Shown piece after piece: positions 4,300 through 61,800 of a DNA stretch of 64,000 bases. Each line of letters opens with the position of its first letter. Positions within the stretch are counted from its first letter, which is position 1. The stretch lies in the NCBI RefSeq assembly GCF_018873765.1, contig NC_057925.1, positions 12,101,568-12,165,567 on the forward strand, written 5' to 3'. The position numbers were made by a program, and so were the translations under genes. Source of the DNA: Telopea speciosissima. Lineage: Eukaryota > Streptophyta > Magnoliopsida > Proteales > Proteaceae. A model generated the notes under the pieces. It searched no databases. It saw only the letters and a program-made list of their open reading frames with translations, and had not been told where the DNA came from.

Positions 4300-6910
4300 C
4301 TCTGTGTGGGAATAAAGAAAGGGGTTTAGTGAAATGTATGAAGAGGACAACAAAAAAAGTTGTAGAATATAAATAAGTTTCTACAATATATTCTAAATGA
4401 TGGATATGGTAGAACATGGTCTATATCTGATGCCAATTTTAAAGCTCAAATTCAGTTATCTCGGTAATCCATGTGCTCTCTTGACATGTCATGTGGCAAA
4501 AGTAGGGCTTGCCGGAAAAACTCTACAGATGGGACTGCTTAGCTAGAAATTCTGGTCCTTTTAGTCAATGCTAATTTTTTTTTGGGGGATATGATTTCTA
4601 TATCAAAATATAAAACATTAAATGGTAACTTCATCCCATATGTCTTTCCCCATCAAATATAAAACATAGAAAAATGATATATCAATTTTGGCAAGCTTGG
4701 TTTAATGGTAACAAATACAAAGTAAACATTAAATGCATATTGGGACAATATAGAAGAGATGAGACCTTAGACTAGAGATTATCAATAGGACAACCGCTAG
4801 TGCAGTTGGGTGGAGCATGGTGCAGTAGAGTCCAGGATCCCAAGAGTTCTAAATCTCAAGCCTCTTGGTCCTCAACATACTCACCTTTATCCCCCTTTGT
4901 CCCTCCTTATCCCCTCTGTACCTTCAAAAAGACAAAAAAAAGAAATGGAAATATAGAGATTACCAAGGATAATACTACCCATCCAACAGTCGGTGTTGCC
5001 AAATTACCCGCCCAACCTCCCTTTCCCCAAACCCCCCCGCCCCAAAAAAAAATAAAAATAAAAAAAACAACATAAATTAAAGGGGCTCTTTCCATGTTTG
5101 AGGATAATTATGCATATGTAGGGCTGTAAATGGCTCGGATTCACTACTATCCGAATCCGAATCCGGTTAACGAATGCAATATCTGAATTCGATCCAATAT
5201 TCGACAGAAATTTAAAAGGCATTATTCGATAACGAATGCATTATCCGATCCGATAAACTCTCTGATTGTGAACATCACAGTTATGGATCTCCGACTCCGA
5301 TTACATTCTACACCCAGTTTTGTCGTCCATGCTTTTGCCCTTTGCCACCAAGAGTTGTAATGAACTGTAAAAAAAATCATCTACAGCAGCCCCATCTCCC
5401 CAAACCCCGCCTCTCGACTGTAAAGAGCTGTAAAAAAAAATCATCTACAGTAGGTCAGCAGCCCCATCTCCCCAAACCCCCCCCTCTCGACTCCAATAGT
5501 AAAAACCTATTGTCCTTTCATTACCCCCTGCTGTAAGCCTGTAACAACGAACAAACAAAAACCCTCCATGTTCACAGCAAAACACTCCTCCCTTCGACTC
5601 TCATTCCCACCCAATTCCTTGACACCAAACCAGATGACTTCTTCAATTTTCATTGAAAATCACCCCACCCATTTGACTTAAAAAAACCCACTGTCGATTC
5701 CCATTGAAAACGCCCACCACCCTTTTTTTTCCCTTTGAAACTTCGATCAACCCCTTCTAGAGTTCGACTCGGTGAAAAGAAAAAAAAAATGAAAAAGAGC
5801 AAAGAGAAGAGAGCGAGAGACAGAACCAAGAGAGAGTGTCGCTGCCGGTTAGAATTGAGAGTCGAGAATCGAGAATCGAGAGGGTTGTGAGTGTGCCGTT
5901 GCCAGTGCCGCTAAGAGTCGAGAATCAAGACTGAGTGACCTTGAGGCTTGACTGCTTGAGGCTTGAGTGCAGAGTGCCGGCGCCGTTGAGGGCTTGAAAT
6001 GTTGAGGCTTGAGAATCGAGAGTGAAAGAGGGAAGAAGAGAATAGGGATTACTCAATTAGGGTTACACTCCTAGTTTTAGGTTAAGAGTTAGGATCATAT
6101 TACAATAATAACCTTGTAAAAATATTAATAATAAGGGTGATATATTAATATTCATATATTTTTATAAAAAATATTAAATAATCATAATTTACAATCGGAT
6201 AACAAATTATCAGATTATTATCCGACTCCGAATCCGATTAGCTTTCGGACGGATTTGGATATTTTTCGGAAACCAAAATTCCGGATTCGGAACCTCCTAA
6301 ACGGATTAGAACTCGGATCGGAGTTGGATTTTCGGCTATCCATTTACAGCCCTATGTATATGGCCCTCGACTCCCCCCTACCAAATTATTTTAACTTCTT
6401 GGCCTAGAGTTCTAAAACTTTGGGCATTCTAAAAATAATTGAAGCTATTGTAACTTATTTTTAATTCAATAGGAAATCATAGTAGTGGTAGGGATACCTA
6501 TTTTCTGTATAATAATTTGGAAAAAGATAATAATTTATTACAAAATATAATAAGGTAGCTTACGAACTATAGTAAGGATTCTTTTTTACTTCAAATGAGT
6601 AATTTCATTGTTCCATTTTGTTTTTCCCTCTTTATACTGCTGAAATCCTTTTGTTTACATTAGGTTTTTGCCCAATTTCTTTATGAACACCAAGAAAATT
6701 AAAGGGTATATAAGCAATCTATGATATCCTTTAGTATTCTTATTGAATTACTCAATTAAATAAATTATTTTGTACTCATCTTAATTTATATAATTCACTA
6801 GCTTAAGTAAAATAGAATCTAAAAATTATTTATTGATGGAAAATTTAAGAATTTATTAGGTAACATATAAATATCATAACAATAAGATGTGGCAACATTC
6901 AACCTATTTA
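4300..6910 (-). repeat. Residual intron of copy A, ending at a recombination joint
   Basis: After removal of the hAT insertion at 5,119-6,354, this sequence follows the intron of copy B (8,261-9,823 plus 11,450-11,550 and 13,315 onward) and the intron of copy C. It stops matching at about 6,901-6,910 ('aacctattta') and passes directly into the 3' flank that precedes copy B. No exon 1 follows. No coding sequence is seen. Confidence 0.75.
5119..6354. mobile_element. Non-autonomous hAT element
   Basis: The terminal inverted repeats are TAGGGCTGTAAATGG at the left and its complement at the right. They are flanked by an 8-base target duplication, TGCATATG (5,111-5,118) and TGTATATG (6,355-6,362), with one mismatch. 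The subterminal parts are rich in short 'atccgaatccg'-type repeats, typical of hAT elements. The matching empty site lies in copy B near 9,383 and in copy C near 31,730. The interior (about 5,340-6,100) has no transposase frame. Confidence 0.85.
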
Positions 6911-7925: not shown

Positions 7926-10900
7926 CTAGAGTAATTTATGAAAATGCTCCACAAATGATGTTCGAAGAACAAGTAACTCTTTTGATACTTGATGCATAGT
8001 GGGACGGGATTGTGGGTGATTGTGTAAACATGCAAGTGCTATTCTTACAACAGAAACCATCACCTCCTTTGCAACATTTTGATGTGATGGAAAGGTGAGT
8101 CTTGGATCTAACACGTCCCTTAATAGCATCTTTTGACCAACTGGTGATGTTAAAGATAAAATGAGCTCCTTTGGATGCCTTCCCAAGATTGTTTCTAATG
8201 CCACTACTCCAAAACTATATACATCACACTTCTCAGTTAAAACCGTAGTGTAAGCAAGCTCTGCGAGGGAATAAAGAAAGGGGATTAATGAAAATGTATG
8301 AGGAGGACAACAAAAATGTTCTAGAATAGATACGAGTTTCGACAATATATTTTAAATGATGGATATGATAGAGCATGGTCTGAATTTATCAGATGTCAAT
8401 TTCAAAGCTCAGATTCAGTTATCTCAGTAATCCATGTGCTATCTTTATAATCATTAATCTTTTGATATTTGTTTACCAAAATAAATCTTTTGATGCTTCA
8501 TTTTTTTTACTGGGCTAGCTCCGTGAGGCTGAAACTTCACATGTGAATAAGGGATCTTAGGGTGTCCACCCCACCACAAAATTTGGGTCCCATCCAATAG
8601 GGCACGTGACAAAAAAAAAGAGTGGCTCATGCAGAGAAGCTGCTCTCCATGACTTTGAAGGAACTTGTGCCCAACAATCCTCTATTACTAATGAGTATTA
8701 ATTGTGGATTTTGACACTAGTGTTTGCATACTACTCACATCAGAAGATAAATTTCATCATGTGTCAAAATACAATTTCAGATAGGAGTGGGGGATCATAG
8801 GTCCACTTGTTCACAAAGATATGGGCCTTTCTGACATGCCATGTAGCAAAAATAGGACGTGCCTAAAAAACTCTGCATATGGGGCTGCTTCGCTTGAAAT
8901 TCTGGTCCTTTTAGTCAGTGCAAATTTTATTTGGGGATATGATTTCTATATCAAAAGTAAAACATTAAATGGTAAGAAATACAAAGTAAACATTAAATAC
9001 ATATTGGGCCAATATGAGCCAATATGGAAGAGATGGGACCTTAGACTAGAGATTACCGGCCAAGACGACAACTGCTAATGTAGTTGGGTGGATCATGGCA
9101 CAGTAGAGCCCAGGGTCCCAAGAGTTCTCAATCTCAAACCTCTTGTTCCTCAACGTACCCACCCTTTATCCTCGTTTGTCCCCCCTTATCCCCTCTGTAA
9201 CTTCAAAAAAAAAAAAAAAAAAAGAAAGTATAGAGATTACCAAGGATAATACTACCAATCCAAAAAATCGGTGTGATCAAATTACCCAAGAGCCCACCTC
9301 CTCTCCCTCCCCCTCCCCCCCCCCCCCCCCAAACAAAATAAATATATATAAATTCAAGGGGCTCTTTCCATGTTTGAGGATAGGTATGTATGTGCCCCTC
9401 GACTCCTCCTCACTAAATTCTTTTAATTTCTTGGCTTAGACTTCTAAAACTTTGGACATTCAAAAAAGAATTGTGGCTATTGTAACATATTTTTAATTCA
9501 ATAGAAAAACACAATAGTGCTAGGGGTACCAATTTTCTGTATAAGAATATGGAAAAAATATAATATTTTATTACAAAATATAATAGGGTAGGTTACGAAC
9601 TATAGTAAGGCTTCTTTTTCACTTGAAATGAGTAATTTCATTGTTCTATTTTGTTTTCCCCCCTTTATAGTTCTGAATTCTTTTTGTTTGCAATAGATTT
9701 GTTTTCCAATTTCCTTACGAACACCAAGGAATTCAAGGGTATATAAGCAATCTATGATATCTCTTAGTTTTCATATTGAATTACTCAATTAAATAAATTA
9801 TTTTGTACTCATCTTAATTTATAGGGAAGATTACACTACGACCCCCTGAGGTTTGTCCTTAATACAGAGCGATCCCTTGTGTTTCTAAATTATACAGCCG
9901 CACCCTCTCTGATTGGACGGTCTTAAATAATACAATATAAAATGCCAATTTTACCCTCTTCTAGTATTATTAACCAAAAACTGTTGAATAATACAATGTA
10001 AAATGACAACTTTGCCATCTTCAAATCCTCTTTCCTTTCTAACCGTTTCTTCTTCTTCTTCTTGTATCAAAAGGTTTGGATAATTTTGAGTCTGTCTTCA
10101 AGATCTCAAGAAAGACCTTCAACTACATCTGTTCACTTGTGAAAGAAGATTTGACATCTAAGCCATCAAATTTCACTCGTACAAATGGGAAGCCCCTCTC
10201 TATAAATGACCAGGTTGCTGTTGCTCTACGAAGGTTAAGCTCTGGTGAGTCACTGGTGACAATTGGTGAATCATTCCTCCGCCTTGTGGATACTTTAGGG
10301 GCGACTGTGGCTTTTTCCTTCAGGGAAAGCAATTGTGCGACAGATTTTCTTGCAAACAGGGCCTGCGAGACTAAATCTAATAGTGAGTTTCTCACTACCG
10401 GGCAGCTACCCGCTGACCTCTGGAGGATTGTCAGAGAGGATAAGGCAGGCCTGCCGGTATTCAGGCATTAAGTAAGTAGTTTTTCCTATCTTTTCATGTG
10501 TAAAGGAAGGGTATGTTGTTTCATTTGAGAGAGAGTACTATTTGTGTTCCTTTGGGTTTGGGGTAAGGCGGGCTATGTGCCACCCATGTATTTCCAAAAT
10601 ATTGGTTTTTATTAATAAAAGCTCAGGGGCCACCCAGGTCCCAAATAATATTTGGGGTTAAAAAAAAAAAAAAACAATTTGTGAATCATCTGGAATGAAT
10701 CAATCAACTGTTTCTCAAGTTACCTAGAGGTTTGTGGAGGCCATGGAAGAGAGAGGGTTTCACCACCTCCAATGGCCTGCCACAGAAGAGGTGATGACAC
10801 AGGTAAAATCCAAGTTTGAAAGGATCCGAGGCCTCACAAACTGTTGTGGTGAAATTGATACCACTCACATCATGATGTATTTGCCTACAGTGGACCGCAC

Positions 10901-13900
10901 AAATGATCTATGGTTCGATCATGAGAAGAATCACAGCATGGTCTTGCAGGCAATTGTTGATCCTGAAATGAGGTTCAGGGACATTGTCACTGGATGGCCA
11001 TGAAGCCTGAGTGACTCCCTTGTGCTCCGCAGCTCAAGCTTCTTCAAGCTTTGTGAAAAAGGGAAGAGGCTAAATGGGAAGAAGATAGAGCTGTCTGAAA
11101 GGCCAGAAGTAAATGAGTACATAATTGGAGATGCAGGGTTCCCCTTACCCGTCGAAAGCAATGACGGCAACCAAGGAGAAGAAGAAGCCAAAAAAAAAAG
11201 AAAAAGAAAATCAAGAAGAAGAAGAAAGGGTTAGAGAGGAAAGAGGATTTGAAGAGGGCAAACTTGTCATTTTACATTGTGTTATTTAACAGTTTTTGGT
11301 TAATAATATTAGAAGAGGGTAAAATTGATATTTTACATTGTATTATTTAACACTGTCCAATCAGAGGGGGTGCGGCTGTATAATTTAAAAATATAGGGGG
11401 TTGCTCTGTATTTAGGACAAACCTCTGGGGGTCGCAGTGTAATTTACCCTAATTTATATAATGCATCAGCTTAAGTAAAAACGAATCTAAAAATTATTTA
11501 CTGATGGAAAATTTTAAGAATTTATCATGTAACAGATAAATATCATAACAGACTCCTTTGTAAGCTTTGTTGGCTGATCAAATCAGACTCCTCTAGGATG
11601 GGTAGGTTTCTTTATGCGAGATTCACTTCCAAGGGCCACATAAAAAATCACATCAATTCCTCATCAACTATTTGGTTAGGAATCAAGAAAATGTGGGCTT
11701 TTGCTTTTGCGCAAGAATCTTGGATCATAGGCGATGGTTCCAAGATTGATTTTTAGCATGATAACTGGTTAGGCGAAGGATCTATGCAGTCCGTTCAAGT
11801 CTCCCTACTTTATTCTTTAAATCATTCGACACCTGCCTTGCAAGATTTATTGTGCAATCTCAATGGCTTTTTCCTACAATTTCTTCTCCCTTCTTGCAAC
11901 AGATTTTTACATATGCATCAAATATCAAACTTTCATCGATAAGTGTGGATGATATGAGGGTCTGGACGCTATCCAACATGGGAAATTTCACAGTGAAGTT
12001 AGCTTGGGAAGGCATTAGATCAGCGGCTAACAAAATTTCGTGGCACTCCATGGTTTGGGCAAAATTTTTACAGCCACGACAATCTTTATTTGGTTGGCGT
12101 TTGATGCATGGTAAATTTCCAACTGACGTGATGATTTCTCAAAGAGCTGTTCAGATAGTTTCTCGTTGTTGTTTATGCCTGTACGCTATTGAAAATCAAC
12201 GTCATATTTTTCTTGAGTGCTCATTCTCTTTGAAGGTATGGCAGGACTTCCTTTCCTTGTTCCAGATGGTGTGGCCGAATGAATCTTCGATTATGGATTT
12301 ATTATTCTGGTGGAAAGAAAAATCAAATGATATCTCTCTTTCAAGTGTATGGATGGTTGGGTTCATTTTGGTGGCTTATCACATATGGCAGGAGCGGAAT
12401 AAGTGACGTTTTGATGGCCAAGGTAATCTTTCTAGTACTGTTATGCACTTCATTAAATTGGACCTCAAAGATGCTTCAACCTTCATGCATTGCAAAATCC
12501 AATTCTTTCAAGACCTGGTAATTGCTCGACAGATCGGTGCCACCTTCTAGAAGTCTAAGTCCCACCGTATTATTGAAATAATATGGAGGAAGCCGGATAT
12601 TGGATGAGTAAACTTAACATAGATGGATGGTTTATGGGAAATCTAGGTCATTCAAGTGCTGCGGGTATTTTTCGGAATCCTCAGGGCATTCCAACAGACA
12701 GTTTCTCTATTTGTTTGGGGATTTCTACAAATTTCTTCGCTGAGTTCTCAGCTTTCTTCTTTGGAGTCCAAATGGCTAGGAATAAAAATATCAACCTTCT
12801 TTGGGTTGAGGGAGATGTTGAAGCGGTGATTACGTCAATAAAGAATGGCAAGATCCCGTGGGAGTTTAAGAAAAAATGGTTTGATGTGGTGAATTATCTT
12901 CTAGCTATAACATGGAAAATAACCCATAGCTCTAGAGAGGCAAATACAGTGGCAGATCTATTGGCTAAAAGGATTGCAACAATTCAGGTGTCTCATTGTT
13001 GGGTAGATTCTCCAACTTTCGTCCATTATGAGATTGAATGAGACCTACAGAAAAGAAGTCGATTTTGTTTTGCTCAGGCCTGAAGTTTATCTGTTCGAGT
13101 TTGTGTTAGTCTGTTTCTCTAGAACCCTGTTGATGGCCATGCCGAAGGTGGGGTTCTAGAGTAATAGCTCTAATCTCTTTTGCTCCTCTAAGGTTACCTG
13201 CCGAAGAGGATTTGTTTTGGTTTTTCTATGGATTTTCCCTTTTGGGGACTTCTGATCTTGTAATTATTCCTATATTTTAATACACAATTTGCTAAGCTTT
13301 AGCGCAAAAAAAATATAAATATCATAACAATAAGACGTGGCAACATTCAACCTATTATTCTAAAATGATTGTAAATAGAAGAAACTAAAAAAAAAATTAC
13401 CTAAGTTTTGAATTTTGATGTGTGTCACCATTCATCCTAATACTCTAAAAGGATTGCAATTCAAAGCAACTAACATACATTTTTCTCTCACTGAAGTTTA
13501 GTTGATTGTGTATTAGATCATTCAAATTTTGAATAAGATGTTTATCAAATAATGAAAATTCTGCTTCCACTTGGTATCAAAGATATGAGGTAGAAACACA
13601 TTTAATTTTTTTTTTCTTTCTCGATACTATGACAACAAATGCTTGAATGACCCAATTTAGCAAAAAAAATCCAAAGTCTTAAATTCTGAAGTGAAAATAA
13701 AGAAATCATGATAAACAACATTAAAAGCATAGTATATGGTAGTAGTAAATTTAAATACCTGGAGCAATATATCCATGAGTTCCTTTAAGCGACGTCCAAT
13801 TAGATGAGTCTGGCTTTAATAGTCTTGCAATGCCAAAATCAGATACATGAGCCTCAAGTTCCAAGTCCAGCAATATATTTTTACTTGAAATATCCCGATG

Positions 13901-18504: not shown

Positions 18505-19160
18505 TGTTCACTTGGGAGGATTCGTTTTCCACACGCTCGAGGCTCTCTGGATCTCTCTTTTTTGCATGAGAAAAACGCATCTGCAAGTGAATAAGGGTCT
18601 TTATTAGTACGTAGTCTTGACTCGATCAACAAGAGGGATTTACATGGAAGGTTCATTTTTCCACACGCTCGAGGCTGGCTATATCTCTCTGTTTTTACGT
18701 GAGAAAAAACGCATCTGCAAGTCAATAATGGTCCTTATTAATATGTATTCTTGACTCAATCAACAAAAGAGATTCACTTGAGAGGATTCGTTTTTCCACA
18801 CGCTGGAGGCTAGCTATATCTAAGGGTGTAAATGAATAGTCAAAATCCGTTTCCATATTCTTGTTTGTATCTGTTTAGCATTATCCGAATCCGTCCAAAA
18901 GCTAAATGGATGAGGATACAGATGGGCTATAGCTATCCAAATAGCTATATTTACATGTAAAGGGATAAAATATCTGATCTGTATCCGTGTCTGTATCCGT
19001 TTAGCACTATCCGAATCCGTCCGATAGCTAATCGGATGCGGATGTGGATGCGGATATAGCACTATCCGAGCCAAATCCGATCCGTTTACAGCCCTAGCTA
19101 TATCTCTCTATTTTTACATGAGAAAAATGAATCTGCAAGTCAATAAAGTTCCTTTCTAAT
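18505..19160. repeat. 133-bp tandem repeat, three units
   Basis: Three units share 'ttccacacgct(c/g)gaggct', 'atgagaaaaacgcatctgcaagt' and 'cttgactc(g/a)atcaacaa', with spacings of about 132 and 135 bases (marker at 18,531, 18,663 and 18,798). The third unit is split by the hAT MITE at 18,821-19,096. The array lies about 1.5 kb upstream of copy B. Confidence 0.75.
18821..19096. mobile_element. 276-bp hAT MITE
   Basis: The ends are TAAGGGTGTAAA and GTTTACAGCCCTA. A perfect 8-base target duplication, GCTATATC, flanks it (18,813-18,820 and 19,097-19,104). Subterminal 'atccgaatccgtcc' repeats match those of the element at 5,119-6,354. Confidence 0.88.
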
Positions 19161-19164
19161 AAAT

Positions 19165-20398
19165 GGGTAAAACTGTTTGTAACCGAGAAGGTTACACAGG
19201 GCTGTAAACGGATCGGATTCGACTTGGATAGTACTATATCCGCATCCGCATCCGATTAGCTATCGGATAGATTCGGATATTGCTAAACGGATACGGACAT
19301 GGATACGGATCGGATACTTTATCCATTTACATGTAAATATAGATTTTCGGATAGCTATAGCCTATCCGTATCCGCATCCATTTAGTTTTCAGATGGATTT
19401 GGATAGTGCTAAACGGATATGGACACGGATACAAAAACGGATTTCGGCTATTCATTTACACCCCTAGTTACAAGTGACTATTGTAACCACTGTTTTATTC
19501 CATTCTTACCCTTGAAAAACGTATCAAGTAAACAAAGAGTGCTTAATTACTATAACAAGTCATCTAATATTGTAAATTCTCAACATTGTACGATTTTCTT
19601 CTTCTTCTTTCTCCTCCTGCTACTTGGCTTTTTTTCTTGATTCTATTGCAGGCATCCTATTTCCAGGTCCGCTACTCCCACTCCCTTCTCTTTGGGCTTC
19701 AGCTTCGGCTCCTCTTTCCATTCTCCCACTTCCTTCCCCCATCCCTGTAATGAATCATAAATACGTACGCTTGAACTCTGCAACTTGAACTGCATAAGAG
19801 ATACTTGTGATTTATCCTCTTGAATATTTCATCTTTGTTGGAGTTAAACTTCGATTTGATGCACCAATTTGGAGTTTACATTTTCTTCCCATTATGGGAG
19901 ATTCTCTGCCTTAAGAAGGAGCACATGTTGTCATGATTTGCATCTTTTATTCCTAATTGTTTTTTCTTAGTTCTATATCGTTCTACTACTTCCAAACTCT
20001 TTTGTATATCATTTAGGTTTTCATTTACTTTCTGCAATTACCGATGTTTGTTGAAACTCATCTGGAGGATGGGTTTTGATTTGATTCACCAATAAAATTC
20101 ACTTCAACGTATCATCCATCATTTCACATAATGCTGGCCAAGTGGGTGCGGAGGAACTCGGAGAGAGAGGATGTAGGAGGGGGCTGGAAACGGAGGCTAA
20201 GAAGAGGTGCGGAAGATGGGAAAACAGAGACTGAGACAGACACTGGGAAGATGGGTAAAGAGGGATAAAGAAATTACGAAAAAAAATGTACTTAAAAGAT
20301 GAGAGAAAAATATATTCAAGGGTAAGAATAGAATAAAAAAGTGGTTACAATAGTCAGTTGTAACCATCTCGGTTACAAACAGCTTTACCCATTAATGG
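19165..20398. mobile_element. Inverted-repeat DNA element of unassigned family
   Basis: The left end (from 19,165: GGGTAAAACTGTTTGTAACC) and the right end (to about 20,390: complement of GGGTAAAGCTGTTTGTAACC) are inverted over about 75 bases once the nested MITE is removed. An 8-base direct repeat, TAATAAAT, lies at 19,157-19,164 and 20,399-20,406, but the exact ends are not clear. The interior shows no transposase. Confidence 0.65.
19197..19466. mobile_element. hAT MITE nested in an inverted-repeat arm
   Basis: This is an inverted-orientation relative of the MITE at 18,821-19,096, about 370 bases away, with ends CAGGGCTGTAAAC and TTTACACCCCTA. The flanks share GTTACA. The undamaged arm at the other end of the host element (about 20,360) shows the empty site. 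Confidence 0.75.
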
Positions 20399-22629: not shown

Positions 22630-24240
22630 ACCTATAGTTGGGAGGATATCTCTTCAATGTCGTTGGAGATGCCCAAAAACTACTAATAAGCATAATTGAA
22701 AATTCAGGTTTTTGATTCGGGCGAGTCACCCGAATGTAAGTCAAAAAATAGCAAAACTTGATCATTAGTCATGTCAATTTCGCCATTTTTTTTTTTTTTG
22801 GGGGGTGAAAACCAGGTTAGAAAATGACCAGTTTGGTTTGAGTTTGTCGAGTAAAAGATGACTCTCTGTTTATATCCAAGTAAAATAAAATTAGCCAAGT
22901 TGGATCAAAATTTAAAACCTTAATCTAAGGGAAATTTGATATTCAATTTTGAATTTGTGATTCAAACTATGATTACTTCAATGTCCAATTCGTCAAAACT
23001 GAGTTTATAATTTCAAGAAGTATAATCATGATAGGTTATTAAAACATGATTTTTACCATAGGCTCCTCTACGGCGCAGGGGTGCCTCGGACATCTTCTGG
23101 CACGGCAGGAAAATGTGCCACGTGTGCTGAGGTTGATCCAGTGGCTTGAAAGGATGAAGCACACCTGGGTCATTTCTTCTTATGATTTACATAATCAAAT
23201 AGGCTTTTTGAAATCCATGGGAGGTAAATCGAACTCAGTCTCTACCGTGGTGAACCTCCATTCTCATCTTTGTTCATACCACCTACCTGCTAAGCACTGC
23301 TGCATATTCTAAGCTTGACACTATAATTCCTCTAATTTTCTTTTTCGATTTTTATGTTTCATATATTTGCATTATGGGACGGGATTTCAATATCCCTTGA
23401 AGCTAAATAGGTACTAATTTTTGCCATTTCATGAATATGAAGCTCTGTTATAGAAAATGGGAAAAAAATGATTTTTCATATTCAATGAGAACCTGAGAGA
23501 TGATCAATATAATTTGTCATTTGCTGGAGTTGGTTCAGTTTCAACAACTATGATTGTGTCAGTAGAGTTAATATGACCTTTATGCCGGTCCAGTGATAAT
23601 GGATGAAGCCATGGCAGCCTTAGAGTATCATAATTACATGTTATTTACTTATTTATTGAAAAATGATTTTTTTATGATATAATAAAAGTATTTGAAATTT
23701 TATATCCACACATGACGAAATTAGCCATGCTTACCCATAGTCCATATTTGAGCTACCAATTTTTCATTTACTCAATTGTAAGTTTTTACATGTTTTATTT
23801 TATTTTATTTTTTGGTATAATTATCAAATTATCAAAAATAGGTTTGGGTTTATCAAATTTCCTATCAAGTCTTTTATTTCACCAAATAGAGAGGGTTCTT
23901 CACGATGCCAAGATGGGGAGGAATCTACACGTTACACCAATGGATAATTCAAAGAATGACATCACCACATGAGGACCTCATGAGTCCAAAGAAAAAGGGA
24001 ATGTGCCAGTGTGAACCCCAAAATATCTGAAAGACTTTGATTGATAAAAGAATCGAAAAATAGGTCAATATTGCATTACAAGTTGGTCGTCTAAATTGAT
24101 GCATAAGTAATCAAAACTCTTTGATTCTTGACTTCGAAAGTAGAGTAGGACAAGGGATATATGGTAATTAGAGGCTTTATCACCAAAGTTCCTCTCAGAG
24201 AACGTAACGAAAAACGTTTTTTTTTTTTTTTAATTTTTTA
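22441..24240. other. Intergenic sequence
   Basis: A (GA)n run lies at about 22,592-22,625, and T-runs occur near 22,788 and 24,217. Short open frames (for example 23,046-23,312) show no recognisable domain. Confidence 0.5.
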
Positions 24241-24263
24241 TAATGATAAACCCATCCCCCGCA

Positions 24264-25490
24264 CGGGCTCTACTTCTTCTCCATCTTTCAATCAAGCACA
24301 CCACTACATCTCTATCCAGCTTACTTCCAAGAACTTTTTTTTCTGGCAAACTCAAGTTGAACCTTTTCCCGAGGGTCAAAACTTGTATGGACATCTTGAT
24401 GGCACTATACCATGCCCAACCGAGGCTGTTGGTGCTGCTACTTGGCACCGACAAGACTCTTTGATTCGGACCTTTCTTATTGCCTCCCACTCTGAGGAGG
24501 TTTTTCCCCTTATTCTTGGCAGGCGAACCAGTCGTGAAATCTGGGAGACTCTCTCTACGGCCTTTTCTTCTCCTTCTGAAAGCCATATTATGTCTCTCAC
24601 TATGGCCTTACAAGACATAGCATAGAAACCTAATGAACCTGTGTCTCAATTTTTGCAGTGAGCAAAATCAATCGCTGTCGAACTTCATGTTGCCGGTCAT
24701 TCTCTACGGCCGAGCATTTTTAATCTCCACATCTATCGTGGTCTCAAGACTGAATTTCGTATATTTGTTGACTCAGACTGATCCTATATCCGATGATGAT
24801 TTACATGCAATGCTACTCAGCCATGAGTTTCTTCATGGCACATCCATGACGAAGTTGACACTTTCTGACGCTCCATCTGGTACCCCTCCCATGGCCAACA
24901 CTGTTCAACACTCCTCCTCCCCTGGTGATCCAGGCTCTCCTTCTCCCAATAGGGGTGGCTGTGGAGGTAGCGGTGGGAGGGGCCGTGGTGGTCGTGACTT
25001 CGTCAATCAGTTCCCTTGCCGGTTCTGGTGCTCGATTTGCAGGCGTACAAACCACTCTACAAACAGCTGCTACTATAGATCCCACTTAGGTTACCCTAAC
25101 CCGCAACCTTTCCCCTCCTCCAACTCTCTGGCAGCCCATTATACCTGCCCCACCTATCCCAGTTATCCCACCTCCCCTTATGGTCATCCCAGCCCACCTA
25201 TTTTACCCACATCAAATCTCACTTCATCATTACCATGGTACCGTAACACTGGTGCTTCTCACCATGTCACTCCTGATATTCAAACATTTTCTCAATATGA
25301 CGAATATAATGGTCAGGATCAATTGCATGTTGGTAACGGTAAGGGACTCCCTATTTCTCACATTGGTTCTTCTTCTTTCCCTTCTACTTCTTCTCGTTCT
25401 TTTTTGTTACATAATGTCTTGCATGTTCCATCCATGTCTAAATCTCTTCTTTCTATTCAGAAATGTGCACGTGATAATAAAGTTCTTTGA
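24264..25490 (+). pseudogene. Copia gag and protease remnant
   Basis: The frame to 24,625 carries a copia gag start (ISIQLTSKNFFFWQTQV, then YGHLDGTIPCP). It stops at about 24,623 and continues after a shift. In 24,633-25,490 a zinc knuckle (CSICRRTNHSTNSC) is followed by a protease region where the expected D-(S/T)-G-A is NTGA. The catalytic Asp is therefore lost. The region ends in a stop. Confidence 0.88.
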
Positions 25491-25599
25491 ATTTCACCCG
25501 TCTCATTTTCTTGTGAAGGATCAAATCACCAAGTCCACTCTTCTCTCCGGTCCGAGCAAAGGGGGTCTTTATGAACTCTCCCCATTCTTCTCCGTCTGT

Positions 25600-26443
25600 T
25601 CACCATGATGTTCGCACTTCTCTTGATATGTGGCATCGTCACCTGGGACACCCACATGAGCATTTACTCTGTACTATGCTTAATAATAATAATTTACCTT
25701 TTATTTCATCTCGTCTTAGTTCTCTTTGTAAGGCTTTCTAGATGGGTAGAGCCAGCCGTTTGTCTTTGGTCGAGACTCATACTAAGAGTTTATTTCCTTT
25801 AGATCTTGTTCATAGTGATGTTTGGGGTCCTTCACCCACTGCTTCTGTTGATGGCCATCATTTTTATGTTATTTTTATGGATGACAATACAAATTTTCTT
25901 TGGTTTTATCCTCTTGTGTGTAAATCTGATGTATTTAATGTGTTTAAGTATTTTCAAGCTCTTGTGGAACGTTTATTTAAACACAAAACTAAATCCGTTC
26001 AGACCGATTGGGGAGGTGAATTTCGGACATTACCTACTTATTTCTCCAACATTGGTATTTCTCATCGACCGTCTGCCCCCCACACTCATGAGCAACAGGG
26101 TGCCATTGAGCGTCGTCATCGCCATATTGTTGAAATAGGCTTATCCCTGCTTGCTCATGGGTCAATTCCCCAAATGTATCGGCATTTTGCCTTTGAAACG
26201 ACAGTATTTTTAATCGGCCGAATGCCCTCAATTGTCTCCCTTGGTGTTTCTCCTTTCAATTGGTATTTCATCGTCTCCCTGATTATACTTTTCTTAAGGT
26301 TTTTGGTTGTCTTTGTTTTCCTTATTTACGTCCTTATAATAAGCATAAAATGGACTATCGCTCATCGTTGTGTGCATTCTTGGGTTACAGTCCATCTAAC
26401 ATGGGCTATCGTTGCCTTAATCTCTCTACTAGTTGCATTATAA
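25600..26443 (+). pseudogene. Copia integrase remnant
   Basis: The remains of the zinc-binding head (WHRHLGHPH, then LCKAF and a stop) precede the catalytic core at 25,742-26,443. The core shows HSDVWGP, TDWGGEF and IERRHRHIVE, so the three acidic DDE residues are visible. The frame then drifts into noise after about 26,230. Confidence 0.88.
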
Positions 26444-26601
26444 TTGCTCGGCATATCGAGTTTGATGAGAGTTTTTTCCCCTTCTCAATCTCTATTTTGG
26501 GACCTCCCCCTCCCTCTTCTCTAGGTCTCTCATAGCCTTGTGCATCAGCCCCTATTCAGTTTCAACAGTCCTCTATACTACGGCCCGCGCCCTTACCATC
26601 A

Positions 26602-28397
26602 TTGCATTTGGCCTCACCATTACAGCCCTCCCCACTGATGCCAACAAGCCCTATGCCTACCCCAAACCCAACACCCACAACCAGCCCTACTGTCCCTCTG
26701 ACTGGCCCCTCTCCTGACTCTCCACCACTTAGGACACGCCCCATCCAGGACCTTTACTCTCCAGCCACGGCCCAACTACCACCCCTGCCTGCTACTCACC
26801 ATCCCATGCAGCTTCAGTCCAAACCTCAGGTTCCCCATGCCCTTAAAATTACTGTTTCTACTGAACCTACATGTTTTACACAGGCAAATAAGTTACCAGA
26901 ATGGCGGGTTGCAATGGCAGATGAGTTTAATGCCCTGATTTGGAATGGTACCTGGACTTTTGTGCCACAGACACCCAACATGAACATTATTGGCTGCAAG
27001 TGGGTATATCGGATCAAAAGAAAGGCCGATGGTTCTCTTGAGTGCTACAAAGTGCGTTTGGTTGCGAAAGGCTTCCACCAGCAACATGGGATTGACTATG
27101 TTGAGACCTTCTGTCCTGCATGTTATTAAACCCACTACTATACAGTGTGTTCTTTCTATTGCTCTCCTAGGGCTAGCCGGTGCGACAACTTGATGTTCAT
27201 AATGCAGTCCTCCATGGTTTGCTTCATGAAGAGGTTTTTATGTCTCAACCTCCGGGATTTGTTGACAATTCTCAACCACACTATGTCTGTAAATTAAATC
27301 GGTCCCTCTATGGTCTTAAACAGGCTCCTCATGCTTGGTTTTCTCGTCTCTCAGAGTTTCTTCTTCACCTTGGTTTTTCTGGTTCAAAGACAGACACTTC
27401 GTTGTTTATTCGTCGCATTGGGCCTCATGTGTGCTATATTCTTGTTTATGTTGATATTTTGATGACTGGCAGAGATTCTAGCATGGTCACTTCTCCTATG
27501 TAGCAGCTATCCAAGGAATTTTCTATTAAAGATCTTGGCAACCTGCATTTTTTCGTGGGCATAGAAGTTGTCAAGCATTCTCGTGGAATTATTCTTTCTC
27601 AGTCTTGTTACATTTTGGAATTATTGCAACACATTGGTATGGTCGATTGCAAGACTGTGAAGACTCCCACGGCTGCCACTTTTAAGCCTTCAGATTCAGG
27701 GGGTGCGTCAATGTCCAACCCTACCAAGTATCGCTTTGTTGTAGGAGCCCTGCAATATGTCACCCTTACTCGCCTAGATGACACTTTCTCCATCAATAGA
27801 GCATGCCAATTTATGCATGCCCCTGTAGAAGATCATTGGCAACTTGTAAAATGCATTCTTCGGTATTTGAAAAGTACCAGGAATTTTGGGCTACCTATTG
27901 AGCATTCTACTTCTCGTTCTCTTCAAGCATTCTCTGATGCCGACTGGGTAGGTGACAGCACTGATCGCAAACCCACAAGTGGTTTCGCAATTTTTCTTGG
28001 TGCAAATCTGATCTCCTGGATCTCCTAGAAGCAACAGACTATTGTCCGTTCCTCTATAGAGGCTGAGTATAAATCCCTGGCTGATGCTTCGGCCGATTTA
28101 ATTTGGTTGGAATCATTACTAGGCAAACTTGGGTATCCCCTGGCACGCCCCCAATACTCTGGTATGATAATATTGGCGACACCTACCTCTCGGCAAATCC
28201 AGGGTTTCATGCACACACAAAGCATGTCGAAATTGATTTTCATTTTGTTCGGGATCGTGTGTCCAAGAAGTAGCTCCAGATCCAGTAACTCTACACATGA
28301 TCAACTCGCCAATAGATTGACTAAGCCTCTTGCTTCGGCGCGGTTTTATTTTTTGTGGGACAAGCTGAAGATTCGGGTGCCCGATTCTCCACCTTGA
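26602..28397 (+). pseudogene. Copia reverse transcriptase and RNase H remnant
   Basis: 26,602-27,129 carries WRVAMADEFNALIWNGTW and GCKWVYRIKRKADG, then breaks. 27,180-27,503 carries LNRSLYGLKQAPHAWF, but the catalytic YVDD is YVDI. 27,555-28,028 holds the connection and RNase H start (FSDADWVGDSTDRKPTSG). 28,029-28,397 has the RNase H tail ([13 protein letters not shown]). Stops separate the pieces, and the lost second Asp of YVDD shows the enzyme is inactive. Confidence 0.9.
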
Positions 28398-30528: not shown

Positions 30529-33500
30529 TCAGAGAACAAGCAGCTCTTTTGATACTTGATGCATAGTTGGGCGGGATTGTGGGTGACTTCGTAAGCATGC
30601 AAGTGCTATTCTCATAACAGAAATAACATCCTTGGCAACCTTTTGATCTGATGGAAAGCTGAGGCATGAGTCTAACATGTCCCTTAATAGTATCTTTTGA
30701 CCAACTAATGACGTTAAAGATGAAATGAGCTCCCTTGGATGCCTTCCCATAATTGTTTCTAATGTCACTACTCCAAAACTATATACATCACACTTATCAG
30801 TTAAAACCATGGTGTAAGCAAGCTCTGCAAAGGAAGAAAGAAAGGGATTTAGTGGAAATGTATAAATAGCAAAACAAACAAGTGTCTTAAAATAGAAACG
30901 ATAAACTACAATATATTTTAAATGACAGATATGGCAGAGCAAGGTCTGGACTCATTAGGTATCAATTTTAAAACTCAAATTCAGTTATTTACTCTCTGTC
31001 CGTGCACCTTTTAGTAGTCCATGAGCCTTCTCTATAACCATGAATCTTTTAATGCTTCATTTTGCCAATGGGTAAGCTCTGTAAGGCCAAACTTCACATT
31101 TGAACAAGGGACCTTGGGGTTTACCTCTACATAAAATTTAGGTCCCATCCAATAGGTTACGTAGCTAAAAATGGGTGGCTCATGGACAAATTCTCCTCTC
31201 TATGGCTTTGGAGGAAACTTGTGCCCAGTATTCCTTCATTACTTGTGAGTATTGTGGCTTTTGACAATAGCATCCTATCTATACATGTTTTGCATAGATA
31301 AAACATTGTTTACATGCTACTCACATCAGCAGATAAATTTGTCATATGTCAAAGTACAGTTCTGTATACAAGCCACGAACCTATTGTGGATATGTTATCT
31401 ATATCAATGTCTATTCCTATGGTAAGTTTAGCCCATATATGTTTACCCCGTCAAATATAAAGTGTAGTAAATGGATACTTTTTCTATAAAAAATTGATAT
31501 ATCAATTTTGAGAAGCTTGGTTTAATGGTAGAAAATTCAAACTAAACAATACATGCATGTTGGAAGTAGAGATGGGACCACAAATTAGAGATTTCCAAGG
31601 ATTCAACCACCCATCCAATAGTCGGTTTGATCACTTTACCCATAAACACCCCCTCTCCCCTCCCCCCCTCCTTACAAGGAAAAAAAAAACAACATAAATA
31701 CAAGGGTTGTTTTATGTTTGAGGATAGAGTTGTATGTGCCCCTCGATGCCCCTCACCAAATGTATATTCATTTTTTGGCCTTCGTTAAATAAATTCAAAA
31801 GGGTGGCCTAAGGTTTATTTTGTGATTGATGAGAGGAATGGATGTAGCGCTCCACCCCTCCCCAAATGTACTTTAAGATCTTGACTTGATTAAAAAAAAT
31901 TTGTAGGGTTGGCCTAGACTCCTAAAGCTTTGGGCAGTCAAAAAAGAATTGTAGCTATTGTAACTTGTTTCTAATTCAATAGAAACCTACAGTAATGCTA
32001 GGGCTACCTATTTTCTGTATAAGAATTTGGAAAAAGTAAACAATTTATTAGAAAAATATAATTGGATAGCTTACATACGAAATATAGTAGGGTTTCTTTT
32101 TCACTCCAAATGGGTAATTTTATTGTTCTATTTTGTTTTCTCCCTTTTCTTACTTCTAATATTCCTTTAGTTTGCAAAAGGTTTTTGCTTGGTTTATTAC
32201 GAATACCATGAAATTAAAGGGTATCCTTTAATTTTCTTTTTGAATTACTCAATTAAATAAAATATTTTCACATCATAATCTATATAATGCATTAGCTTAA
32301 GCTAAAAAGAATCTCAAGGGTATTTACTGATGGAAAATTTAAGAATTTATTATGTAACATATAAAAATCATAACAATAGGACATGGCAACAGTCATCCTA
32401 TTATTCTAAAATGATTGTAATTGAAAGAAACTAAAATACATTTTTTAGTCAAAGTTTTGATGATTGTGTACTAAATCTTTCAAAGTTCTAATAAGATATT
32501 TTCCAAACTATAAGAATTGTTCTCACTTGGACTCAAATGTATGAGATACAAACACTTTAACTTTTCATTTTTCAATACTAAGATGACAAATACTTCAATG
32601 GTCAAATTCAGCAAAAATCCTAGACCTTAAATATTGAAACGAAAATAAAGAAACCTTCAAATTATAACTATAAAAAAATATTTATTTGCAGTGAGAAATT
32701 TAAATACCTGGAGCAATATATCCATGAGTTCCTTTAGGTGACGTCCAATTAGGTGAGTCTTGCTTTAAAAGTCTTGCAATGCCAAAATCAGATAAGCGAG
32801 CCTCAAGTTCCAAGTCCAGCAATATATTTTTGCTTGAAATATCCCGATGAATTATTGGTGGAACACAGTCATGATGCACGTAAGACAAAGCATTGGCCAC
32901 ACTTTTGATGACATTTATTCTTTTCAGCCAATCGAACTCCACAGCCTCTGCCTGATTACTCAAGAAACGTTCTAAGCTTCCCTTTTCCATGTACTCATAA
33001 ACAAGAAACATGCACCGTGGATGAGAGCAAAATCCATAAAGTTTGACAATGTGTCGATGCCTTATTTCTGTTAACACACGTATCTCATTCCCAAAGCTTT
33101 CCTCATTAACTATTGCATCACCTTCTACTGGATGGAACTTCTTCAAGGCTACTACATGGCCAGTACGTAGCGTTGCTTTGTAAACATTTCCATAAGTTCC
33201 AGTTCCAATGCAATATTTGGAATCAAAATCCTCTGTTGCTTGAATAACGTCCTCATAAGCAATTTTGCCATCGAAATTCCATATTGAAAATATGTTGCCA
33301 TGATTTCTTCTGGTCGGTTCTACATTTCCTTTTCACTTTTTCTCCCAAGAGGAAGACGACACTGATAATTGCAAATGCAAAGAACACAGTTCCTATTAAA
33401 GAAGCAATGATGGATATGATGAGTTTGTGTCCATTTTTTTCCGATCCCTTCCGTGGACGAGATTGATTGCAGGGAAGTAGACCTTGAAGTTCACCACATA

Positions 33501-36218: not shown

Positions 36219-38819
36219 ATGGCGGAGCCCCTTGCCGTAAGGGAGGGTCGCCCCCCAGACCTCGCGCCACGGGCAGCGGCTCCTGCTCTGCATTCCTTTG
36301 CAGTGGTAACCTCCAACGGGTCTGCCCTATCGCTCCGGTGGTCTCGGTGAAGACCCCATCGCTGTACATGGGTAACCCTGCGGTTTTCTTCACAGAGGAT
36401 CAGATAGCAAAATCTGAAGAGCCGTTTTATTATAATAGGTGATTGTATTTCATTGATTCAAATAGAACCGATTACAGTAAGTATATTTATAATACAAAGA
36501 GTTGGATTTAGAGTAGGTCTCACATGCTGTTGCGTCAAGAAATCGTCGAGCGGTCCTGCAAGTGCCGTCACCTGCAAGTGGACCAAGGGGTCACGAGAGA
36601 GAATCGGTGTGGTTCCGGCCTGAGGCTCTCCGATGCCAAAGTTAGATCTCCTGAGCAAACAGATGAATAGTGATTATTCAATATGAGTTTTGATCTCCCT
36701 CTATGGGGTTGTGTACCTTGTCTTTTATAGTAGTGTATGGCGGTGTAGAGAGTCCCAGTTTGATGGCGATTGTGCTGTTGAGTGGATAGAGGCCTTGGGT
36801 AACGGGGCTCTATCCTGATTGGCCATCTCCCTGCGGGAGGGAGTGTCCTGGTGGTATCAAGATCCTTGTTGGATAGATACCCGCGTGTGGTGATAACGTT
36901 ATTGGTGCTTGAATCCGTTTGGGTGATGTGACTTCTAAGCGGTGGCCTAGAGTCCTGGTGGTGACAAGAATCTACAGTGACACGATTGGGTCATAGACGA
37001 GTGGCCCCGGTGTCCGTGTACATCACGTCCGCGTCCACGATGCCGCGCCTGGGTGCAGGCCCGCCTGGGTGAGAGGCCGCACCTGGGTGAGGCCCCGCCT
37101 GGGTGCTGGCCGAGCCCGGGTGGGACCCCAGGTTCGTTCTCCTTGGTTCTGGAGCGGGTCATCCTGTGACACGTGGTGGCTGCTGATTGATCCGGTGAAT
37201 CTTGAATGTATCACATGCGATAATAGAAGAATCCATTATCACATGGGACTGTGCAACATGAAGAAGACGTGATAGAGTGTGAGTAGAAGACCAATATAGT
37301 GATCCTAGAATAGGAACGACTATATTGGTCAATACGTTTCAATTGGCGTTGGTGGCTAAATGCTTGTATGGTAGGCCAACGATTTTTTATTTTAAAAGAT
37401 CACTCCAGGCCATCTTCCACCTCTCAAACGATGTTCTGATCTCCTCCTTGGATTCCAGACATCTTCTCTTGAGATTTCTTAAGAGGGAGGATTTCATTAA
37501 AGTTTGGCTTAAAGAATATGTTGTTGTTAAGGGCTTCTCTTTTCGGTTTTTCAAATGGTCAAGGTTTTTTAAGGCTGGGTTGGAGTCTCCGATTGTGCCA
37601 GTTTGGGTGTCCTTTCCAAATCTTCCAGTGAACCTGTACCAAGGGAATTTCTTCCTATCTATTGCCGGGACAGTCGCAAAATTGTTGAAGGTTGACAGTG
37701 CCATGGCTGGATGTACCAGGACGATGGCGGCAAGGGCTTGCGTGGAAGTGGACTTGCGAGCAGTCCACCCTGATTGTGTTTGGGTGGGTTGTGGTGCTTT
37801 TGGTTTCTTCCAAAAGGTCGTTTATGAAAGATTGCCGTTGTTTTGCTCTGGCTGTTCGAAATTGGGTCATGGAGAAGAGGCATGCCGCAAGAAGAAGTTG
37901 GGAGGACTGGTGCCTGAGGGGAATAAGGAGGGGTTTTTTAAGGGCCAATCGTTGGATGAACCTGTGGTTATTGAGGAAGGGGGTGATCAGGAGGATGATA
38001 GGGAGGCATCCCTAGTGCGTGATAAAGGTAAAGAGGTTATGGTGGTGGAAAACGATGGTGATCACAAAGAGCTTTCATTGGCGCATTCTAATGGAGTGGG
38101 GAAGGGAGGACGGCGAGTCTAACCGGAGGTGATGACGAGTTTCCTAATAAGGAAAGGGAAGATTACGTTGCGGTTCCGCTTGCTAATTCTTTGGGAAGTG
38201 AGAAAAAATCAAGGGGTTATTGAAAACGGGCTTTTATCTACTATCCCTTCAATCTTTATTTCTGGAGTCTCAGATTAGATCTCCGACACACTCAGCCGCT
38301 ATTCAAGAAGAAGCTGCAGGAGTTCACGTTTTTATTGAACAAGGTGGAGCACCACATGCTTCTCATGACAAAAAATCGCAATGGATCACTGATAGTGATA
38401 TACATGAAGGTTTAAATAAGGAAGATCAAGTTCTTTTTGAAGTTGAGGGTGCAGAACGTGATTCAAGTAATAAAGAATTGCAAAGTCTCGAGGGTGGTGA
38501 GCAAGGTGGGTGGATTCGGATGGTGGGTCTGAAAATCCGTATTGGACATAGGAATGCTCGTCGAGGTGGTCGTGTGAGAACTCCAGCTATTGCCAGAACT
38601 CGGAGTCAAAGGAATGGAAAGCTTGGTGATAAGGCGGTGGTCGTGCCGGTAGATAAAGAGGTGGGAGTGGGCTTGCAAAATATCCCATCGCCTTTTCATC
38701 CAGAGGAGGAGGCCCTTTTAGCCCGTGTGGCTCTTGATCGACCAAGTGTCTATGCTGGGACCCCACGACGATCGGATAGGATAAGGATCCCATCGGTGTG
38801 CCTCACAGATCCCGTGTAG
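36219..38819 (+). pseudogene. LINE ORF1 (DUF4283, zinc knuckle), split by a solo LTR
   Basis: The start ATG at 36,219 is followed by a basic Pro/Ala-rich stretch. A second frame reads NPAVFFTEDQIAKSEEPF up to the LTR insertion at 36,428. The frame resumes at 37,340 with LALVAKCLYGRPT, then the DUF4283 core (LLLRFLKREDFIKVWLKE, VPVWVSFPNLPVNLY). A CCHC knuckle follows (CSGCSKLGHGEEAC, about 37,848-37,889). An acidic and basic tail runs with interruptions to 38,819 (PRRSDRIRIPSVCLTDPV). This is the nucleic-acid-binding protein of plant L1 elements. It is broken here. Confidence 0.85.
36428..37334 (-). mobile_element. Solo-LTR-like insertion in LINE ORF1
   Basis: 907 bases flanked by the 5-base duplication CGTTT (36,423-36,427 and 37,335-37,339). 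It separates EEPF from QLALVAKC in ORF1. A minus-strand TATA (ACTATAAAAG) lies at about 36,722-36,731. The ends are TATT...AATA rather than TG...CA, so the LTR assignment is tentative. GC-rich 'cgcctgggtg' repeats occur near 37,041-37,120. Confidence 0.65.
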
Positions 38820-43640: not shown

Positions 43641-43649
43641 TTTAACAAA

Positions 43650-45018
43650 GGGAAGTTTATGAAACACCCCCTGAAAATGGGCCGATACTCAGATCACCCC
43701 CTTATATTTGAAAATACTCAGATCACCCCTTGCATTAGAGCCCTATACTCAATTTAGACCCTACCGTTAGTTAACTGATGAAATCAGCTAGTTAAATTTT
43801 TTAAAAACCCTAAACTACCCTTGACAATAGTATAATTACTATTTTACCCTTAGATATGTCACCCAGTTAAATAAATTTAAATCCCTAAACTACCCTTTGA
43901 TTAATGTGAAGTTACTTTTTACCCTTGGATCTAAAAACCCCAATTTTTTTAAGTTTATAAGGATGAGGGGAATCAAAGGGGAATATTCCCTCTTCTTCCC
44001 CAAATCAACAGAAAGACAAATGAAACCCTTAGGGTTCTGCCTCAAGGAAACACCGTGAATGGCAGCCAAAACACTGTGACGGCGGCCCAATAATCCCGGC
44101 AAAGGGTGGTGATAGGCCGGCGACCAATCATATGGCGTCAGACGTCGTGAATCTCCAGCGATCCTTGCACCTCACGATTAGCTTTCCCTGTTTCTCCCAC
44201 CACAAAACCCCAAGACAAAAACCAGCTGCTGTGAAAGAGCATCCATGGCAGATGCAAATGATCGCCGGAGATTGTCGATTTTTATTTTCTTCAGAAGATT
44301 TTTCTTTACTTTACATTTCAGTTTAAACTTCCCACGCTGAGGCCCACACTGCGCCAAAAACCACGCTATTCCGATCCTGCACAGCTCAGACCCTAAAAGT
44401 AAAAAAATCACGCTTGGGGTACATTTTGCAAACCCGAATCCGATGCTATGAGCTTGAGACAGAGACCACCTCCCTCCCGCGCTGCCTCTTTCGGCACCGG
44501 AGGAGGAGCGCCGCCGCCACCACCACCACAATCCTCCCATATACCGTTTCCGTATAGCCTGATTTTTTTTGTTTAAGTTTAGGGTTTTTGATTTAATCAA
44601 AGGGCTTATTACAGTTCTTTATGTTAGTCAATAGCACCGATGATTTGCCTCTTGCAGGTGTGAGTCACCATCGGAAGCAGCTGCCTTGTTGTTGAGTCAC
44701 CATCGGAGCAGCTGCCACCCATTGTCTCTTGGTTTTTTTGTTTTTTTTCCTTCTCTCCGGCGACTCTCCGGCGAACTTATGCTTGAGATTGAGTTACAGT
44801 TGTGAGGAGGAGGATGAAATTAGGTTGAAGATGAAGGACAGGGTAGTATTGTAAATTTAATTCTAATGATTTAGTACAAGGGTAAAATAGTCCTTTTACA
44901 CCAATAACTAACCGCAGACTAACACCGTTAGTGTAGAGGGGGTGATCTAAGTATTTTCAAATATGAGGAGGTGATCTGAGTATCGGCCCATTTTCAGGGG
45001 ATGTTTCATAAATTTCCC
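43650..45018. mobile_element. Mutator-like element, candidate Pack-MULE
   Basis: The terminal inverted repeats are about 160 bases (left GGGAAGTTTATGAAACACC, right complement of GGGAAATTTATGAAACATC). A perfect 9-base target duplication, TTTAACAAA, flanks the element (43,641-43,649 and 45,019-45,027). The interior is GC-richer than its surroundings and has no transposase, but contains gene-like pieces. Confidence 0.88.
44448..44576 (+). pseudogene. Possible captured first exon in the MULE
   Basis: A 42-codon frame begins MSLRQRPPPSRAASF and is rich in Gly and Pro, like the disordered N-terminus of a nuclear protein. It is preceded by leader-like sequence and ends at a TAA. The parent gene is not recognised. 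An overlapping minus-strand frame (44,178-44,600) has no domain. Confidence 0.35.
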
Positions 45019-45306
45019 TTTAACAAATAAAAAACCAACTAGAAAGGCCTAATCTTAACAACTAAACTACGATTAATTGTACTTGGGACATGCTATTGTA
45101 GAAAGAATAGCACCTTAGATCATTACTAGATGATCACATACATTATTCCCTCGCCATGGTGTTCCATCTTGCATTGTCCAACGTACCTCAAGGACCTTCT
45201 GTGCCATGGAAACCAACCCCTTTATCCAAACCTTGGATTCTTCGTATTCTTTCTGTATCCATAAAATGATGCATTACATAAACTTGATAAACTTGATAAC
45301 TAGAAC
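45019..45306 (-). repeat. 3' flank of copy D, second part
   Basis: It continues the alignment with copies A and B ('gaaaggcctaatcttaaca', 'ccatggtgttccatcttgc') up to the solo LTR insertion. Confidence 0.65.
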
Positions 45307-59356: not shown

Positions 59357-60422
59357 ATTTAAGTTAGCTAGAGAACGAGGGATTGGACCACTGAGTTTGT
59401 TCTGACCTAGTGTTAATTCAATCAGATTCTCCATATCTCCAATTTCTGAAGGCACTGGACCAAAAAATTGATTGTCATACAAATAGAGATTCTCTAGCTT
59501 ACTTAAGTTAGCTAGTGAACGAGGGATTGGACCACTGAGTTTGTTCTGACCTAGTGATAATTCAATCAGATTTCCCATATCTCCAATTTCTGAAGGTATT
59601 GAACCACTGAATTCATTGGAATGCAAATATAGATATTCGAGATTGGTTAAATTAGCTAGGACAGGGGGGATCAAACCAGTGAATTTATTCCAACCTATTG
59701 ATAATACAACCATATTTTTCATACTCCCTATTTCTAAAGGAATCTTGCCACTGATTTCATTGGCAAAGAGGAGTAAGAAGCGAAGGCTGCTTAAATTACT
59801 CAAGGTGAGAGGCAGAACGCCGGAAAGATTATTATTGGAGAGATTGAAGTGGGTGAGCTTGGGGAGGCTACCAATATGCATTGGTATAGGTCCAATGAGT
59901 CCATTGAGGCTGAGATTGAGACGGAGGAGATTGGGAAAGGAAGAGAAGGTCAAGTTATGAAGCGTACCTTGCAGCTCTGCTTCTGGAAGGCTTATCTCAA
60001 CCACACTACTTCCGACTTTGTTGCAAGTTATCCCAAACCACTTGCATGGGTGGATTGGTGATGAAGCCATAGTACTCACATTCGGAGATGGTGATGTAAT
60101 AGTAAGCTTCCAAGAACCGAGAGCAGCAACAGAGTAGTTTAGAAGGCTGGCTTTCCATTTTAGGAGAGCCTCTGCTTCACTTGACAGCTGATCAGAGACG
60201 ACCAGCCTTGATTCACTACTAAACGCAGTAGAGGAAGTGAAGAAGCTTACAAGGCAAAGAAACGCTACAACGGTCGGAAAGAAGAATAAGAACGGAGGAG
60301 TCGTGAGAGATCGAGTAGAAGGAGTGTTGGTTATGGTGGAGTAAGCCATGGCTGGGTGGTACCTCCCTTACGTTGTTGGTTGGTTCGCACTTTGCTGTGA
60401 AAATACCTTTTGTTTCATTGCC

Positions 60423-61390: not shown

Positions 61391-61800
61391 CTAAGAAATT
61401 GACGAAGGGTCCCACATGTATTTATTTTTCCACACGGAAGCGATTCACTCTATCTCTTGTTGTGACAACATAGACCTAAAAACATAACCACAAGTCAATT
61501 GACGAAGGGATCCACATGTATTTATTTTTCCACAAGGAAGCAATTCACTCTATCTCTTGTTGTGACAACATAGACCTAAAAACGTAACCACAAGTCAATT
61601 GACGAAAGGACCTACATGTGTTTATTTTTCCACATGGAAGCGATTCACTCTATCTCTTGTTGTGACAACATAGACCGAAAAACGTAACCACAAGTCAATT
61701 GACAAAGGGACCTACACGTGTTTAGTTTTCTACATGGAATCGATTCACTTTTATCTCTTGTTGTGACAACATAGGCCTAAAAACGTAATCACGAGTCAAC
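61391..61800. repeat. 100-bp tandem repeat, four units
   Basis: Markers 'caagtcaattgac' at 61,491, 61,591 and 61,691 (and a diverged one at 61,791) give a period of 100 bases. Each unit has TTGAC (W-box core), TTTTTCCAC(A/G) and 'attcact(c)tatctcttgttgtgacaacatag'. Confidence 0.88.

Follow-up and report, generated by a model that had tools for sequence, protein, structure and literature searches.

A probable Pack-MULE carrying an ALP1/Harbinger-type nuclease fragment in a receptor-kinase intron of Telopea speciosissima

The stretch of the Telopea speciosissima genome considered here (contig NC_057925.1, 12,101,568 to 12,165,567 of the forward strand; 64,000 nucleotides in all, numbered from the first letter and referred to below as the window) contains a mobile element of 1626 bp at 9824-11449, lodged in an intron of a leucine-rich repeat (LRR) receptor kinase gene. 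The element is very probably a non-autonomous Mutator-like element (MULE) of the kind called Pack-MULE, carrying a fragment of a host ALP1-family gene, that is, of an old domesticated Harbinger nuclease. It looks like a clear but unremarkable case of a gene-carrying transposon of a familiar type. The case is nonetheless well bounded, the window itself supplying two empty sites, and it presents the ends of one transposon class with a gene descended from another.

As outlined in one published account, MULEs are distinguished by target-site duplications of 9-11 bp and mostly by long terminal inverted repeats (TIRs), while Pack-MULEs are the non-autonomous MULEs that bear genes or gene fragments (PMC3310237). 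For plant PIF elements the duplications are described as mostly TTA or TAA (PMC8903248, PMC2528002). The present element starts with GGGAAGATTACACT and ends with AGTGTAATTTACCC, giving GGG...CCC tips, and its two TIRs of 237 bp align without gaps at 213 identical positions. The alignment of one arm with the other scores 354, against a maximum of 29 among 200 mononucleotide shuffles. On both sides stands a perfect 9-bp duplication, TAATTTATA. Identical 9-mers at a spacing of 1635 occur at just 3 of 62356 positions in the window, namely this pair and two overlapping pairs at 37121-37122. Inverted ends of about 235 bases and a perfect 9-base duplication were what the original prediction had described, and both hold on measurement. 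In their length and in the 9-bp duplication, the ends are thus of the Mutator kind rather than the PIF kind. Within the left arm there is, in addition, a 39-bp repeat in two copies, 61 bp apart and 85% alike.

The insertion is directly shown: two paralogous intron stretches of the same window can be aligned over the insertion site, and each lacks the element and has the target once. In copy D, which belongs to a truncated gene copy, the target is one exact TAATTTATA, and the flanks of the element align to it with 88.4% identity over 528 ungapped positions. In copy B the target reads TAATCTATA, with one mismatch, and the flanks are 84.6% identical over 460 ungapped positions. A third paralogous copy, near 49.9-52.3 kb, gave no alignment at the insertion site and is uninformative. 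From the two empty sites it follows that the element arrived after the host copy had separated from copies B and D, or that it was precisely lost from both of them, which is less likely.

Turning to the cargo, a Harbinger-type nuclease gene is represented by about 650 bp in two pieces (Table 1). When its in-frame stops are read as X, the second piece matches Pfam family DDE_Tnp_4 above the cut-off, with an expectation value (E) of 2.3e-12 over profile positions 1-86 of 158; the open reading frame (ORF) at 10734-11003 taken alone reaches E 4e-05, just below the cut-off. A Pfam search of the first piece at E 0.01 returned no match, and a search of the second piece against solved structures returned none at E 1. 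Between the ends there are five ORFs with 60 codons or more; all were scanned, and no Pfam family other than DDE_Tnp_4 was found at E 0.01. Three scans, covering viral contigs and the genomes of prokaryotes, confirmed no relatives of the cargo, which is unsurprising for a plant gene. The guanine-cytosine content of the two pieces is 0.40 and 0.46, while the intron sequence on either side has 0.27 and 0.25. The original prediction had placed an ALP1/Harbinger DDE_Tnp_4 sequence at 10,076-11,150; its type is upheld by the Pfam match, while the recognisable similarity ends near 11147.

For the origin of this fragment, a comparison was made with provisional sequences of two plant ALP1-family proteins; identity to them is 76% and 82% for the first piece, 64% and 78% for the second, values that serve as a lead and not as a test. 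On both of these provisional sequences the pieces lie one after the other without overlap. At the edges of the cargo, a search for inverted matches of 10, 12 or 14 bp, allowing one mismatch, between 10061-10110 and 11110-11212, where Harbinger-type ends would be sought, found none. Because of the 64-82% identity to the provisional sequences and because no Harbinger-type ends were found beside the cargo, a domesticated host gene of the ALP1 family appears to fit better as the source than an active Harbinger transposon.

A different account of the same arrangement is nesting, in which the cargo would be the relic of a Harbinger (PIF) transposon after its insertion into a Mutator-like element. 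The cargo is indeed a DDE_Tnp_4 nuclease, its second piece also has a weak match to Plant_tran (E 0.0087, under the cut-off of that family), and the element already hosts one nested insert. However, no inverted ends were found close to the cargo edges, and no second Harbinger gene turned up in the five scanned ORFs, the nuclease itself being partial and no Myb-like partner being among the families found. The identity to host ALP1-family proteins also speaks against nesting, with the proviso that the comparison comprised just those two provisional sequences. Overall, nesting is improbable. It is barely credible that the element represents a true Harbinger family using these long ends, even though a Harbinger-type nuclease fragment is the sole recognised coding sequence between them; the outer duplication is 9 bp rather than the 3-bp TWA of PIF/Harbinger elements, and no inverted ends that would bound an inner element were found near the cargo edges.

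Several observations nevertheless weigh against the Pack-MULE interpretation or limit it. The placement in the ALP1 family is a lead drawn from the two provisional ALP1-family sequences compared. The end of the DDE_Tnp_4 domain is absent from the cargo, so its catalytic triad cannot be scored. The window holds no further copy of the element's ends, and only TTC-repeat 14-mers from either arm recur in it. Finally, where the arms meet the interior, 10046-10064 and 11172-11226 share inverted TTC-repeat matches; these are read as a simple repeat and fall partly outside the zone in which the cargo edges were tested.

The two pieces of cargo are split by an insert of 399 bp that ends in poly(A) and is flanked by a 16-bp duplication matching at 15 of 16 positions. 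A 15/16 pair at that spacing is unique among 63569 positions of the window. The 3' end of the insert resembles 61883-61991, with 68% identity over 117 positions (E 4e-05). A poly(A) tail together with a target duplication of variable length is a feature expected of a long interspersed nuclear element (LINE), and the insert is likely a LINE on this sequence evidence. The label stays short of proof because no Pfam domain was found and the assignment draws on the poly(A), the duplication and the 68% tail match. The 65-codon frame of the insert has no Pfam family at E 1 and is short for the question of reverse transcriptase or RNase H, and a list of ORFs of at least 50 codons around the 61883-61991 tail, made without a domain scan, includes no LINE ORF. 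Of the LINE tail with a 16-base duplication that had been predicted, the poly(A)-ended insert and its duplication stand, but the duplication is imperfect and the LINE has no domain hit. Just upstream of the short, A-rich, retroelement-like tail at 61883-61991, four tandem copies of a 100-bp unit occupy 61397-61800.

Without the inner insert and one copy of its duplication, the element measures 1211 bp. Tomato Pack-MULEs are reported to be most abundant at 1000-1200 bp (PMC3310237), and the closeness to this peak was counted in favor of a Pack-MULE. Like Pack-MULEs in general, the element combines long TIRs, a 9-bp duplication and a gene fragment with no recognised transposase of its own superfamily; it differs from them in that the carried gene is itself derived from a transposase. 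With ALP1 and At3g55350, which are domesticated PIF/Harbinger nuclease genes, it shares DDE_Tnp_4 and a high similarity to the provisional sequences of two family proteins, whereas the present sequence is cut short, has two stops and lies within a mobile element. In grapevine, MULE, CACTA, PIF and hAT elements are likewise cut-and-paste elements that carry fragments of cellular genes, but the cargo named in the account of these transduplications is cellulose synthase, PPR and ULP rather than an ALP1-type gene (PMC2528002). Among the titles and abstract openings surveyed, none reports a MULE with ALP1-type cargo, which is not proof that none is in print.

Taken as a sequence of events, the Pack-MULE would have acquired its interior by capture from an ALP1-family host gene, and a Mutator-type transposase supplied in trans from elsewhere would have acted on the long ends. 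The element would then have moved into the intron after the receptor-kinase copy split from its two paralogs, leaving the 9-bp duplication behind. A truncated retroelement copy may later have entered the cargo, or may already have been present in the source that was copied. The latter order, in which the 399-bp insert preceded capture and a decayed copy rather than an intact gene was captured, is rather unlikely. The cargo carries stops and the sequence leaves the order unfixed, and nothing decisive stands against it, but it is simpler to suppose that the insert came after the capture. The original proposal, that one class captured the coding sequence of another class or of a domesticated host gene, is partly supported: its ends, cargo, insert and intron location hold, the capture step itself is surmised, and of the two sources a host gene appears to fit better than an active Harbinger element.

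The host gene is an LRR receptor kinase on the minus strand, in which 17023-13759 joined to 8260-7926 gives 1200 codons with the sole stop at the end. The spliced frame is therefore open over 1199 codons, in agreement with the predicted location in the intron of an intact receptor kinase. The cargo is oriented antisense to this gene. Since it has two in-frame stops and lacks the end of its domain, it can make no nuclease; most likely the fragment does nothing and is spliced out together with the intron.

Table 1. Positions of the element, its parts, the empty sites and the host intron in the window.
Feature	Position	Strand	Basis or remark
Left target-site duplication, TAATTTATA	9815..9823	.	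Present once at each paralogous empty site
Left TIR of 237 bp, beginning GGGAAGATTACACT	9824..10060	+	Arm alignment
Cargo, first piece, ALP1/HARBI1-type nuclease fragment	10076..10274	+	66 codons open in one frame; likeness to provisional ALP1-family sequences
16-bp duplication, first copy	10259..10274	.	15/16
Insert ending in poly(A), probable LINE tail truncated at its 5' end	10275..10673	+	Tail match, flanking duplication
16-bp duplication, second copy	10674..10689	.	15/16
Cargo, second piece, DDE_Tnp_4 nuclease fragment	10692..11147	+	In-frame stops at 10725-10727 and 11001-11003
Right TIR of 237 bp, ending ...AATTTACCC	11213..11449	-	Arm alignment
Right target-site duplication, TAATTTATA	11450..11458	.	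Perfect copy
Empty site, copy D (truncated gene copy)	6782..6790	.	Junction CATCTTAATTTATATAATTC
Empty site, copy B (paralogous intron)	32276..32284	.	Junction CATCATAATCTATATAATGC, target TAATCTATA
Intron of LRR receptor kinase, 5498 bp	8261..13758	-	Spliced frame open

The antisense orientation admits a more adventurous idea. The Arabidopsis relative of the ALP1-like gene is a Polycomb accessory protein. The kinase pre-mRNA would contain two 237-base arms capable of pairing, together with antisense ALP1-like sequence. Were the intron RNA to feed small-RNA production, the kinase locus might yield small RNAs directed at the ALP1-like gene, and Polycomb control would be tied to a receptor gene through a transposon, a course of events that is very improbable. 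The analogy is with maize, in which the captured sequences of Helitrons, Pack-MULEs and Sireviruses are presented in a review as reservoirs of small RNAs with effects on the donor genes (PMC13317346). The element may also bear on annotation practice. One pipeline, as described, classes any element with a long enough transposase match as autonomous (PMC8903248); such labelling could misfile elements like the one at 9824-11449, and cases of this kind may therefore be missed.

The same intron contains a second retroelement at 11551-13314, with zf-RVT and RVT_3 domains and a perfect 15-bp duplication, ATAAATATCATAACA. It too is missing from both paralogous intron stretches, ATAAATATCATAACA being present once in copy D and, with one mismatch, in copy B. 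More broadly, duplicated LRR receptor-kinase sequences cluster across 1583-60349. Two of the copies, whose exons lie near 32.7 kb and 52.3 kb, are split into several ORFs, and in the 52.3-kb copy pieces of a hAT transposase (zf-BED and hAT-like RNase-H; 56406-58038) separate the main part from the N-terminal part at 59354-60349.

Another Mutator-like element, of 1369 bp, is found at 43650-45018. Its inverted ends are about 80-86 bp long, with 77 of 86 positions identical from the tips, and a perfect 9-bp duplication, TTTAACAAA, flanks it at 43641-43649 and 45019-45027; a Pfam search with its ORF of 140 codons gave nothing at E 0.01. A hairpin-like inverted repeat at 18817-19470 has arms of 233 bp that are 85% complementary, with 188 bp between them and a start near GGGTGTAAATGAATAG. 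Lastly, 24161-28028 holds retroelement remains, probably of the Copia type, in which RVT_2 is recognised and rve is matched weakly, under the cut-off.
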